From positions 1 to 60,031 of the forward strand of contig JAOUIA010000018.1 of the NCBI GenBank assembly GCA_029884335.1: DNA of 60,031 nt. The letters are read 5' to 3'. The notes beneath the pieces are model-generated. The model worked only from the letters and a program-made list of their open reading frames with translations. It was not told the origin of the DNA and did not search any database. Below are positions 34,805 to 43,181 of the stretch, one piece after another. The number at the start of each line of letters is the position of its first letter. Within the stretch, counting starts at the first letter, position 1. Made by a program: the position numbers and the translations under genes. The stretch comes from Betaproteobacteria bacterium. GTDB taxonomy: Bacteria > Pseudomonadota > Gammaproteobacteria > Burkholderiales > Casimicrobiaceae.

Positions 34805-34809
34805 CGCTA

Positions 34810-35076
34810 GGGCCTGTTCACGCCATGGCCGCGCGCGCGCGCGGGTCCATGGGCGTGTCCATCGCGACGCTCGCCGCAGCGAAGACCGGGCGTCTTCGCA
34901 AGGCGAGCAACAATGAGGGGCGCGCCCAGGGGCCCGCTCCCTCCGGGTTGCGGCCGGAAAGGCCATGCGCTAGGCGCAGAGCCGAAGGCGGGTCGGAAAC
35001 CCGGCGAGGCTTTGCAACACCGCGCATGGCCTTTCCGGCTTCGCAACGCGCACGTGTCCATGGCGTGAACAGGCCC
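34810..35076. mobile_element. MITE-like element with terminal inverted repeats, between livH-like gene and livMGF fusion
   Basis: This 267-base element is bounded by perfect 19-bp inverted repeats, GGGCCTGTTCACGCCATGG at 34810-34828 and its complement at 35058-35076. It is flanked by a CTA duplication (34807-34809 and 35077-35079). It contains a hairpin at 34869-34908 (GCTCGCC and GCGAAGAC arms). A second, larger one spans 34947-35047 (GCCGGAAAGGCCATGCGC arms). It has no credible gene. The right CTA copy is the complement of the TAG stop of the livH-like gene. Removing the element leaves TAG-CG-ATG. Confidence 0.85.
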
Positions 35077-35946
35077 CTACTCGAAGCGCTGGATGCGCTC
35101 GCCGAACAGCCCGCGCGGGCGCACGAGCAGCACGAGCAGCATGAGGAGGTAGATGGCCGCCTCCGAGTACTGCGGATAGCCCGCGGCGGTCACGGCGCCC
35201 TTCGTCACGCCGACGATCAGCGCAGCGATCACCGCGCCCCAGAACGAGCCCAGCCCGCCGATCACGACGACGACGAACGCGGATGTGATGATCTCGGCGC
35301 CCATCGCCGGGTGGATGGTGAAGATCGGCGCGAGCATCACGCCGGCCAGCCCCGCGAGCCCGATGCCGAGGAACGCCACCGCGGCCATGTACGGCTCGAG
35401 CGAGATACCGAGCGCGCCCACCATGTCGGGGTTCTGCACGCCGGCGCGCACGACGCGCCCGAACGGCGTGCGCTGCAGCAGGAACCACAGGCCCGCCACG
35501 CATCCGACGGCCACGGCCAGGATGAGGAGGCGGTAGCGCGGGTAGACGAAGTCGCCCACGATCACCTGCCCGCGCAGCTCCTGCGGGATCGACCACGACA
35601 GCGGTGGCGCGCCGAACACCATGCGCAGCGCCTGCTCGGCGACCATCGCCAGCCCGAACGTCAGCAGCAGCGACAGCGCCGGGTCGACCTTGTAGAAGCG
35701 GCGGAACAGGAAGCGCTCGATGACGAGCCCGAGCAGGCCCACGACGACCGGCGACAGCAGCGCCGCCCCGGTGAAGCCGAGCTGCTGGCCGATGGTGACC
35801 GCGAGGTACGCGCCGATCGCGTAGAACGCGCCGTGCGCGAGGTTGACGATGCCGCCGAGCGCGAAGATCAGCGACAGCCCGAGCGCGATGAGGAGGTAGT
35901 ACGCGCCGGCGAGCAGCCCGTTCAGCAGGTGCTGGAGGATCAGCAT
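35077..35946 (-). CDS. Branched-chain amino acid-type ABC transporter permease (LivH-like)
   Basis: This 289-residue membrane protein has eight or so hydrophobic segments. It begins MLILQHLLNGLLAGAYYLLIALGLSLIFALGGIVNLAHGAFYAIGAY, the standard LivH opening. The conserved GVQNPDMVGALGI loop and FVVVVIGGLGSFWGAVIAAL are present. It pairs with the permease domain of the fusion protein downstream. Its stop codon is formed by the target duplication of the inserted element. The binding-protein gene is about 194 bases upstream on the same strand. Confidence 0.88.
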   Translation of the reverse strand: MLILQHLLNGLLAGAYYLLIALGLSLIFALGGIVNLAHGAFYAIGAYLAVTIGQQLGFTGAALLSPVVVGLLGLVIERFLFRRFYKVDPALSLLLTFGLAMVAEQALRMVFGAPPLSWSIPQELRGQVIVGDFVYPRYRLLILAVAVGCVAGLWFLLQRTPFGRVVRAGVQNPDMVGALGISLEPYMAAVAFLGIGLAGLAGVMLAPIFTIHPAMGAEIITSAFVVVVIGGLGSFWGAVIAALIVGVTKGAVTAAGYPQYSEAAIYLLMLLVLLVRPRGLFGERIQRFE

Positions 35947-39694: not shown

Positions 39695-41533
39695 CTATTC
39701 GACGGTGACGCTCTTCGCGAGGTTGCGCGGCTTGTCGACGTCGGTCCCGCGGATCACGGCAGCGTGGTACGCCAGCAGCTGCAGCGGCACGACGTGCACG
39801 ATCGGCGAGAGCAGCCCCGCGTGCTCGGGAAGTCGTATGACGTGGATGCCGTCGCCCGCCGCGATGTGGCTGTCGAGGTCGGCGACGACGTACAGCTCGC
39901 CGCCGCGCGCGCGCACCTCCTGCAGGTTGCTCTTGAGCTTCTCGAGCAGCGCGTCGTTGGGCGCGATCGCCACGACCGGCATGTCGCGGTCGACGAGCGC
40001 CAGCGGGCCGTGCTTGAGCTCGCCGGCCGGGTAGGCCTCGGCGTGGATGTACGAGATTTCCTTGAGCTTGAGCGCGCCTTCCAGCGCGATCGGGTAGTGC
40101 AGCCCGCGGCCCAGGAACAGCGCGTGCTGCTTGCGCGCGAACTTCTCCGACCAGGCGATGATCGCCGGCTCCAGCGCGAGGGCCGCCTGCAGCGCGGCCG
40201 GCAGGTGCCGCAACCCGCGCAGCCAGTACGCCTCCTCCTCGGCCGATAAGCGCCCGCGCAGCTTCGCCAGCGCGCAGGCGAGCAGGAACAGCGCGGTCAG
40301 CTGCGTGGTGAACGCCTTGGTCGACGCGACCCCCACCTCCACGCCGGCCCGCGTCAGGTACGTGAGCTCGGTCTGGCGCACCATCGTGGACGTGGCCACG
40401 TTGCAGATCGCCATCGTGTGCTTGTGGCCGAGGTCCTTCGCGTGCTTGAGCGCGGCGAGCGTGTCCGCGGTCTCGCCCGACTGCGAGATCACCAGGACCA
40501 GTGCATTCGGGTTCGGCACGCTGTCGCGGTAGCGGTACTCGCTCGCGATCTCCACGTTGCACGGGATGCCGGCGACCGTCTCGATCCACTGGCGCCCCAC
40601 CGACCCGGCGTAGTAGCTGGTGCCGCAGGCGAGGATCAGCACGCCGTCGATCGCGCGCAGCACCTCCTCGGCGCGCGCTCCGAACAGCGCGGTGTCGATG
40701 CGCGCCACGCCCTCGAGCGTGTCCGACACGGCGCGCGGCTGCTCGAAGATCTCCTTCTGCATGAAGTGGCGGTACGGCCCCAGCTCCGCCTGCCCGCCGC
40801 TCGCCTCGACGATCGTCGCCGGGCGGTCGGCCGGCTCGCCGCGCGCGTCGAAGATCGTGTAGCCCTCGCGCCTCACGTCGGCGACGTCGCCTTCCTCGAG
40901 GTAGACCACGCGGCGCGTCACCGGCAGCAGCGCGGCGGCATCCGATGCGAGGTAGTGGTCGCCGTCGCCCAGCCCCACGACGAGCGGGCTGCCGGCGCGC
41001 GCGCCGACGATGCGCCCGGGCTCGCGCGTGCTGATCACCGCGATCGCGTACGCGCCCTTGAAGCGCGCGACGGCCGCGGTGACCGCGCGCAGCAGGTCGC
41101 CGCCGCCGGGTGCGTGCCACTCGCGGTGCACGAGGTGCGCGATCACCTCGGTGTCGGTCTGCGTGCGGAACTCGTAGCCGGCTGCGGCGAGCTCGTCGCG
41201 CAGCGGCTCGAAGTTCTCGATGATGCCGTTGTGCACGACCGCGACCTCGCCGTGCGACGTGTGCGGGTGCGCGTTGTCCTCGGTCGGCGCGCCGTGCGTC
41301 GCCCAGCGCGTGTGCGAGATGCCCACCGTGCCCTCGAGGCCGCGCGCAGTCGCCTGCCTCGCGAGGTCGGCCACGCGCGCGACGCTCACGCAACGCTCCA
41401 GCGCCGGCTTCGCGCCGCCGTTGATGACGCACAGTCCCGAGCTGTCGTAGCCGCGGTACTCGAGCCGGCGGATGCCGTCGATCAGGACCGGGACCACGTT
41501 GTGGCGCGACGCCGCGCCCACGATGCCGCACAT
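39695..41533 (-). CDS. glmS: Glutamine-fructose-6-phosphate aminotransferase (isomerising)
   Basis: This 612-residue enzyme makes glucosamine-6-phosphate, the first step to UDP-GlcNAc for peptidoglycan and LPS. The N-terminal nucleophile Cys follows Met1 ([12 protein letters not shown]). The glutaminase domain has [11 protein letters not shown] and [11 protein letters not shown]. Two SIS domains follow with [10 protein letters not shown] and [14 protein letters not shown]. The C-terminal VTVE tail is standard. It is downstream of glmU on the same strand, but a 160-base element is inserted between them. AGGA in the element end lies about 10 bases before the ATG and may serve as ribosome-binding site. 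Confidence 0.96.
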
Positions 41534-41540
41534 CGGCTAG

Positions 41541-41700
41541 TGTCCTGTCCCGTGAGTTCCGAAGATAAAGGAGCGGATGAAATCGGCCGCCAGGCTAGGC
41601 GCTCGGCCGACATCGTAGCCCGTGCTACGGTGAGGCCGAGCAACACCGCATGGCGGCCGATTTCGCCGCGAACTATCGAGCGAACTTGCGGGACAGGACA
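41541..41700. mobile_element. MITE-like element inserted at the glmU stop codon
   Basis: This 160-base element has inverted ends (TGTCCTGTCCCG at 41541-41552, complement at 41689-41700, extended by AGTTC/GAACT). It is flanked by a 4-base duplication CTAG (41537-41540 and 41701-41704). Nested arms allow one long hairpin: GAAATCGGCCGCCA with TGGCGGCCGATTTC, GCTCGGCC with GGCCGAGC, and CGTAGC with GCTACG. It has no gene. The CTAG at 41701 holds the glmU TAG stop. Removal leaves CTAG-CCG-ATG, with glmS starting three bases after the stop. It shares an internal module with 34810-35076. Confidence 0.88.
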
Positions 41701-43074
41701 CTAGCCCTTCGCCTTCTTGACCGGCCGCTTCCAGTCGCCGATCGTCAGCGCCTTCGGACGCGCGAGCGTGAGCCCGCCCGGCGGCACGTCCTCGGACAGC
41801 GCGCTGCCGGCGCCGACGGTCGCGCCCGCGCCGACGGTCAGCGGCGCGACGAGCACGCAGTTCGAGCCGATGTGGACGTTGTCGCCGATCACCGTGCGGT
41901 GCTTGTTCGCGCCGTCGTAGTTCGCCGTGATCGAGCCGGCGCCGTAGTTGACGTTGGCGCCCACCTCCGCGTCGCCGAGGTAGGCGAGATGGTTCGCCTT
42001 CGCGCCCCTGCCCATGCGCGTGGCCTTCACCTCGACGAAGTTGCCGATGTGCACCTCGTCGGCCAGCTCCGCCCCCGGCCGCAGGCGCGCGTACGGGCCG
42101 ATGCGGCAGTCGCGGCCCACGCTCGCGCTCTCGAGGTGCGAGAACGGCGCCACCGTCGTTCCCGCGCCGATCGTCACGTCGGCGAGCACGCAGTGCGCCC
42201 CGATCGTCACGCCGTCGCCCAGCTTCACGTCGCCTTCGAGGATGCAGCCGGCGTCGATGCGCACGTCGCGGCCGCAGCGAAGCGTGCCGCGCAGGTCGAA
42301 GCGGTCCGGGTCGGCGATCCACGTGCCCGCCTCGAGCAGCGCCTCGGCGCGGCGACGCTGCAGGACGCGCTCGGCCCGCGCGAGCTGCAGGCGGTCGTTG
42401 ATGCCGAGCACGTCGTCCTCGTCGCCGTGCATCACGCCCTCGACCGGCACGCCGTCCGCGACGGCCATCGCGATCGCATCGGTCAGGTAGAACTCGCGCT
42501 GCGTGTTGTCGTCCTTCAGGCGCGCGACCCACGAGGCGAGCTTCGCCGTCGGGGCGGCCATGACGCCGGTGTTGATCTCGTCGATGCGCTTCTGCGCGGC
42601 GGTCGCGTCGCGCTCCTCGACGATCGCCTGCACGCGCCCCTTCGCGTCGCGCACGACGCGCCCGAGGCCGTGCGGGCGGCGCACACGCGCGGTCAGCACC
42701 GCGAGCGCGCCCGCGTCGGCCCTGCGCACGAGCTTCGCCAGCGCGTCGGCAGGCACCAGCGGCACGTCGCCGAGCAGGATCAGCGTCGTGCCGCGGGCGG
42801 GCAGCGCCGGCAGCGCCTTGCGCACGGCGTCGCCGGTGCCGCGCGGCGGGTCCTGCAGCACGAACGCGAGGCCGTCGGCGGCGAGCCGCTTGCGCACCTC
42901 GTCGCCGCCGTGGCCGTAGACGAGCGCGATTGCGCGTGGCGCGAGCCCGCGCGCGACGTCGATCACGTGGGCGGCGATCGGCTTCCCGGCGAGCAGGTGC
43001 AGGACCTTCGGCAGCGCGGAGCGCATGCGCTTGCCCTGGCCCGCTGCGAGGATGACGACCGAAAGCGACGACAT
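41701..43074 (-). CDS. glmU: Bifunctional GlcNAc-1-P uridyltransferase / GlcN-1-P acetyltransferase
   Basis: This 457-residue enzyme performs the last two steps to UDP-GlcNAc. The N-terminal pyrophosphorylase domain has LAAGQGKRMRSALPKVLH, QDPPRGTGDAV and LLGDVPL. The C-terminal left-handed beta-helix has repeated I/V-G hexads (GDGVTIGAHCVLADVTIGAGTTV, NFVEVKATRMGRGAKANHLAYLGDAEVG). ATG 43074 is the start. The frame runs to a TTG at 43101 without better signals. Its TAG stop overlaps the target duplication of the inserted element, so the glmU-glmS pair was probably tightly coupled before insertion. Confidence 0.95.
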   Translation of the reverse strand: MSSLSVVILAAGQGKRMRSALPKVLHLLAGKPIAAHVIDVARGLAPRAIALVYGHGGDEVRKRLAADGLAFVLQDPPRGTGDAVRKALPALPARGTTLILLGDVPLVPADALAKLVRRADAGALAVLTARVRRPHGLGRVVRDAKGRVQAIVEERDATAAQKRIDEINTGVMAAPTAKLASWVARLKDDNTQREFYLTDAIAMAVADGVPVEGVMHGDEDDVLGINDRLQLARAERVLQRRRAEALLEAGTWIADPDRFDLRGTLRCGRDVRIDAGCILEGDVKLGDGVTIGAHCVLADVTIGAGTTVAPFSHLESASVGRDCRIGPYARLRPGAELADEVHIGNFVEVKATRMGRGAKANHLAYLGDAEVGANVNYGAGSITANYDGANKHRTVIGDNVHIGSNCVLVAPLTVGAGATVGAGSALSEDVPPGGLTLARPKALTIGDWKRPVKKAKG

Positions 43075-43181
43075 GGAGGATAGGATGCTGCGGAACTGCA
43101 AATGATACCCGCCCGCGTCGTCCTCGCGCCCGCGGCAGGCGATCGATGGCCGCTGTACGCTTCAAACGGTATCCTTCGGGC

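Follow-up and report, generated by a model that had tools for sequence, protein, structure and literature searches.

A non-coding mobile hairpin, probably an IS630-type MITE, at the stop codon of glmU ahead of glmS

The stretch of DNA analysed here (the window, 60,031 nt) contains glmU and glmS on the minus strand, both with the Pfam domains expected of them, separated by an element of 168 bp (Table 1). Read along the minus strand, the order is glmU, its TAG within a first CTAG, a hairpin, a second CTAG, the trinucleotide CCG and the glmS ATG, which lies 3 nt past the distal CTAG. An initial annotation, made from the letters alone, had described inverted ends with two mismatches, folding of the whole element into one hairpin, and CTAG on either side, and each of these is borne out. 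The two ends, CTAGTGTCCTGTCCCGTGAGTT and CTAGTGTCCTGTCCCGCAAGTT (the latter reverse-complemented), agree at all but 2 of 22 positions, CTAG included, and the entire element forms a single near-perfect hairpin with a DNA folding energy of -65.7 kcal/mol, against -29.3 +/- 3.0 for 200 shuffled sequences, none of which folded equally well (z -12). The CTAG on both sides was taken for a duplication of all four bases; the flanks stand, and the duplicated unit may be either the TA within CTAG or the whole CTAG, as the sequence fits both. The TAG of glmU, said to have been kept, is indeed intact at the element's edge within the proximal CTAG, and the AGGA placed about 10 nt before the glmS start is present. 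The element carries no transposase gene and, at 168 bp, is too small for one.

Table 1. Features at the glmU-glmS junction and in the second element of the window
Feature	Position	Strand	Basis or remark
MITE including both flanking CTAG	41537..41704	.	Hairpin, ends, copies in genome and relatives
Terminal inverted repeat, glmS side, holding distal CTAG (41537-41540)	41537..41558	+	CTAGTG, as in IS630-family ends
Terminal inverted repeat, glmU side, holding proximal CTAG (41701-41704)	41683..41704	-	End comparison
TAG stop of glmU, belonging to the element's CTAG end	41701..41703	-	Sequence, junction comparison
Conserved apical hairpin module	41581..41663	+	Model R2, 82.6 bits; covariation
AGGA in distal arm, ending 9 nt upstream of the glmS ATG; paired in free RNA fold	41543..41546	-	RNA model
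glmS (SIS and glutamine amidotransferase domains)	39695..41533	-	Pfam
glmU (NTP transferase and hexapeptide repeats)	41701..43101	-	Pfam
Second MITE-like element with different inverted ends (GGGCCTGTTCACGCCATGG), bordered by CTA at each side, two apical modules	34807..35079	.	
Apical module in second element	34849..34930	+	R2, 55.3 bits
Apical module in second element	34956..35037	+	R2, 62.6 bits

The element is mobile DNA. As the initial annotation had anticipated, it is present in multiple copies: the host genome (G000) holds four, on C7 (the glmU-glmS copy, 100%), C106 (96%), C73 (90%) and C39 (77%), and many more are found in relatives. A sequence search of 100 genomes, the host's own included, gave matches in 26 at E<=0.01, many of them short, and a covariance model built from 31 copies (R1) found matches at E<=1e-3 in 34 of 64 genomes of the family. 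Empty sites between glmU and glmS, also anticipated, were found as well. In 21 family genomes the two genes are at most 18 nt apart, without an insert (one pair overlaps by 1); G002 and G006 read C-TAG-CG-ATG there, and G015, the closest relative judged by glmS (92%), reads GAG-TAG-CGACG-ATG. In twelve others of the family the spacer is longer (48-941 nt), with no element there among the matches listed, and no glmU was found upstream of glmS in the 12 genus g2 genomes read or in G014. Among the junctions read, an element-type insert occurs in the host and in one other genome only, G034, and the sequence is not otherwise conserved at distant glmU-glmS junctions. The G034 copy is 82% identical to that of the host and in the same orientation. 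In the rest of the genus of G034, as far as read (five members), the junction is empty, and two separate insertions therefore seem likelier than a single old one. Comparison of ten joined sites with G015 gave a usable result in three (L003, L325 and L326), the far flanks being unalignable: here the genes that stop at the element's TAG end in G015 by TGA at the aligned position, where the element is absent.

Variants of the element were seen at several loci. One copy (L083, 1000-1171) has its core inverted relative to the outer arms, and two copies of 85 bp (L066, 1644-1728; L067, 1498-1582) have no core hairpin at all; G058 carries 39-bp palindromes (C8, C220) with ends of the same kind as these coreless copies. 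Two different elements stand in tandem at L222 (1163-1491) with a single CTAG common to both. A family of 195-nt CTAG hairpins (L215-L221), whose copies are numerous and much alike within one genome, has the apical module in the opposite orientation. A closely similar 168-nt subfamily occurs in two genera (L223-L227 in G102, L242-L247 in G030), which suggests transfer between them, and a match to the right-arm pattern on a contig labelled Omnitrophota (L179) could be due to a binning error or to transfer. Finally, one copy (L070, 1011-1190, on C8 of G045) sits at the start of another gene, whose product begins MCGI and which we take from its appearance to be purF.

The ends of the element point to the enzyme that moved it. 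From the matches of the sequence, model and end-pattern searches we picked 109 copies by hand; 117 of their 218 ends are CTAG and 83 are CTAGTGT, with CTAG at both ends of 40 copies, an arrangement compatible with duplication of TA inside CTAG as well as of the whole CTAG, and at neither end of 32. A resident IS630 element of the relative G058 (L305, 916-2094) has CTAGTGTAGTG at both ends, and its transposase is a full-length IS630 match (IS630 equivalog) whose frame stops at the TAG of the element's own flanking CTAG. Among 12 plasmid relatives of this transposase, CTAGTG stands at either end of eight, and one more (L402) has TTAGTG/CTAATG; the other three (L403, L411, L412) have no such pair. 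Taken over the 20 ends of the ten elements with such a pair or its variant (L305 included), the opening six positions count C19 T20 A20 G19 T20 G20. Similarity of the MITE ends to IS630 is confined to the first ~6-7 bases; past these, the ends differ among subfamilies and the two arms nevertheless still pair with each other, a pattern not accounted for by a fixed transposase site. According to the portion of the literature accessible to us, IS630 prefers TA within CTAG as its target. Because the CTAGTG ends match autonomous IS630 elements with this preference, we consider it likely that the element is a non-coding IS630-type MITE, inserted at the TA of the CTAG formed by the glmU stop codon and the preceding C, and we infer that an IS630-family transposase moved it. 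Insertion would have copied TA (or CTAG) to both sides, leaving glmU to end at TAG as before and glmS whole. Pattern searches of six genomes, among them G000 (120 contigs, 95.6% complete), turned up no autonomous element carrying the longer end sequence of the MITE. The eight single ends inspected belong to small, cut-off or solitary copies with no good partner end 0.8-3.5 kb away. In G051, where three copies are nearly identical, neither a DDE_3 match nor an IS630 was found.

Several other origins were weighed against an IS630-type MITE. A native structured leader, or a riboswitch-like control of glmS, would fit the strong covarying hairpin, its position at the glmS start and the like-oriented insert in G034; we nevertheless regard it as highly improbable and reject it on account of the dispersed copies and the empty junctions of relatives, and the element has no match in Rfam at E<=1, which also disposes of a known Rfam RNA. 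A search of Rfam with 18 related loci returned two tRNAs and seven matches under the gathering scores. It is unlikely that the MITE was moved by an IS5-group transposase duplicating CTAG or YTAA, as for MITEPsy1: IS5-type (DUF4096) elements do lie at or beside CTAG in G035 and G051, but the CTAGTG ends fit IS630 and are unlike the ends of these IS5 elements, and DUF4096 is found in three of nine genomes, G000 not among them. The joint change of the two arms, together with Y1_Tnp matches in nine of ten genomes (one of them in G000), could speak for mobilization of a single-strand hairpin by a Y1 enzyme of the REP type (RAYT). At 22 Y1 loci, however, no such hairpin was seen; R2, the model of the apical module, has no match in them at E<=0.1, and R1 has one weak match (L341, 20.1 bits, E 0.003), on a GTAGGAGCGGC-type repeat pair. 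Moreover, the ends are CTAG and not GTAG, and G045 (73% complete) has copies but no Y1 match, leaving a Y1 mover quite improbable. Membership of the RAYT/REP class was rejected, the element being 168 bp with CTAG and not 20-40 bp with a GTAG tag, and none having been seen beside the 22 Y1 genes. The Y1 transposase loci L336 and L341 lie amid GTAGG-type inverted repeats of another kind.

The position at a stop codon raises the further possibility that the family is actively aimed at stops, beyond any preference for CTAG. The precision noted at glmU is real and general. Genes beside the 109 copies were called by a codon score trained on glmS and glmU, without curated annotation, and 91 flanks have a gene running toward the element. 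In 44 of these the gene stops at the first position inside (42 by TAG, 2 by TGA), the TAG cases being spread over 40 of the 109 copies; two others end by TAA one base earlier, 41 stop before the element and only four further in. Were genes broken at random, that TAG would account for no more than roughly one in three of the inside stops. R ends supply the stop in 28 flanks and L ends in 16, from which no orientation bias is claimed. CTAG itself is scarce: 59.6 would be expected in the window, which has 15 (3 within the element). Of 123 CTAGs outside elements in 444 kb of related DNA, 34 (~28%) already score as in-frame stops, a rough figure since 613 of 3,020 random positions satisfy the same frame rule. 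Given that CTAG is rare and often a stop, and that harmful insertions are lost, a preference for CTAG with loss of gene-breaking insertions largely explains the placement, and active targeting of stop codons, on a rough test, appears unlikely.

The feature of these elements that had not been foreseen lies in their interior. The core is an apical hairpin of ~82 nt in which certain loop bases are kept and the stems covary, and subfamilies with quite different stems have this apical domain in common. In the alignment of 31 copies, two-sided changes occur at 29 of 51 pairs (143 cells), compared with 14.0 pairs and 38.5 cells in shuffles, 0 of 500 of which were as high, and 8-13 pairs in slid structures. 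For 27 apex representatives (alignment A2, drawn from 38 apex segments), 88% of cells are paired compared with 65% after shuffling, and two-sided changes affect 19 of 21 pairs (122 cells compared with 39.8); again, 0 of 500 shuffles were as high on any measure, and slid structures were 28-46% paired. Some loop columns are nearly fixed (e.g. A66 100%, C29 96%, G30 93%), and the outer stem columns average 0.56. As mean conservation is alike in paired and unpaired columns (0.68 and 0.68 in A2; 0.86 and 0.82 in A1), the claim of conservation rests on single loop columns and on covariation. The members of A2 were found by R1, so their sequence conservation is partly selected for; R2 was in turn built from A2, and the structures were taken from the same alignments.

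The module extends well beyond the element. R2 matched 83 of 369 genomes of the host's class at E<=1e-5 (its own counted), many in multiple copies. We inspected 24 of 30 R2 loci, leaving aside the element's own copy and five that were too short: L351 has CTAG at both ends, L361 has CTAG and CTAA and L355 a degenerate pair, and most others are different palindromes, several of only 80-120 nt. Inverted pairs of apical modules, like REP dimers, were seen at L375 (1501-1684) and L392 (2503-2690). The window itself holds the second MITE-like element of Table 1, whose two modules share one orientation; a relative of it lies on C17 of G000 (L273). None of 16 IS630 loci, 8 loci of IS5 type and 22 Y1 loci gave a match to R2. 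L364, a related apical hairpin in a genome belonging to the same order, matches six plasmid records (four from Cupriavidus, one each from Comamonas and Mitsuaria), with no annotated feature under the matches in their incomplete gene tables, and gave no match in phages or E. coli. A literature search with the motif letters returned unrelated papers only. Nor was a published description of the module found, which is weak evidence, as most subscription papers and ISfinder lay beyond reach. Tentatively, and at slightly under even confidence, we propose that this hairpin represents a widespread kind of module that has yet to be described, and that a protein recognizes it in the form of folded RNA or of single-stranded DNA. 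On this view the module, with near-fixed internal-loop bases (around NAGGC opposite AACRC, and GNAG opposite CGAGG) and stems rewritten in compensation, has been taken up repeatedly by mini-transposons with unrelated ends and also occurs on its own, in shorter hairpins, throughout the host's class (Gammaproteobacteria as GTDB defines it, judging by record titles). Binding by a protein, a function of the RNA at 3' ends, or derivation from an older hairpin that IS630-type ends captured afterwards could each account for a structure shared by elements whose ends differ.

The initial annotation had also suggested that the element end might supply glmS with a ribosome-binding site or a regulatory hairpin. 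Models of the RNA leave this possible. In the free fold, AGGA is fully paired and the glmS ATG has an unpaired probability of 0.04. When -15 to +13 around the glmU stop is kept unpaired, mimicking a terminating ribosome, both the ATG and the A of AGGA reach 0.90, with GGA at only 0.16-0.25. The Shine-Dalgarno energy at the element end is modest, -4.4 kcal/mol, against -5.4 at the glmU end and -7.6 at the G015 junction, and ends of the GTCAG type have no Shine-Dalgarno match (+0.7). In this model, the hairpin in the mRNA would draw the start of glmS close to the glmU stop and conceal that start. A ribosome finishing at the glmU TAG would melt the 5' arm and thereby uncover the start, so that translation of glmS might become coupled to that of glmU.

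Elements with parts of these properties have been described. As far as the accessible parts of the sources go, IS630 elements targeting CTAG, MITEs in operons and MITEs inserting at CTAG are already known. The IS630 family (ISBmu8, ISAzs31, ISRjo2 and relatives; IS630 of Shigella sonnei) shares with our element the CTAGTG start and the CTAG on both sides, but its members are ~1.17 kb with a transposase, against 168 non-coding bp, and the apical module is absent from the IS630 loci checked. In IS870, according to the available text, the CTAG target provides the stop codon for the element's own ORF; here, too, the stop comes from CTAG, but for a host gene. MITEPsy1 of Pseudomonas syringae, as presented in the part of the source we could consult, is a 100-nt MITE inserting after CTAG or YTAA (marked IS5?) with a 4-nt duplication; that duplication and its ends, GGAAGGTCTGAAAAAGCC, distinguish it from the present element. 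The Chunjie MITE of Geobacter uraniireducens (178-235 bp) also resides in an operon, 'without disturbing' according to the title, while the review text that we could consult has it disrupting one operon copy (PMC10969869); it belongs to another host, and the likeness lies in the operon setting. GTAG/CGTC REPs, in the excerpt available, are palindromic repeats of 20-40 bp with a GTAG or CGTC tag and stems with alternative complementary residues (PMC3733652); like the element they are palindromes with compensating stems, but shorter and with a different tag.

CTAG-targeting MITEs offer a simple reason for mobile DNA to settle in tight operons, because genomes of high GC content have few CTAGs, and these are frequently stop codons. 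That a structured core is kept across elements with unrelated ends suggests a common binding partner. If the hairpin does couple glmU to glmS, an essential operon for cell-wall precursors would have been rewired by one insertion.
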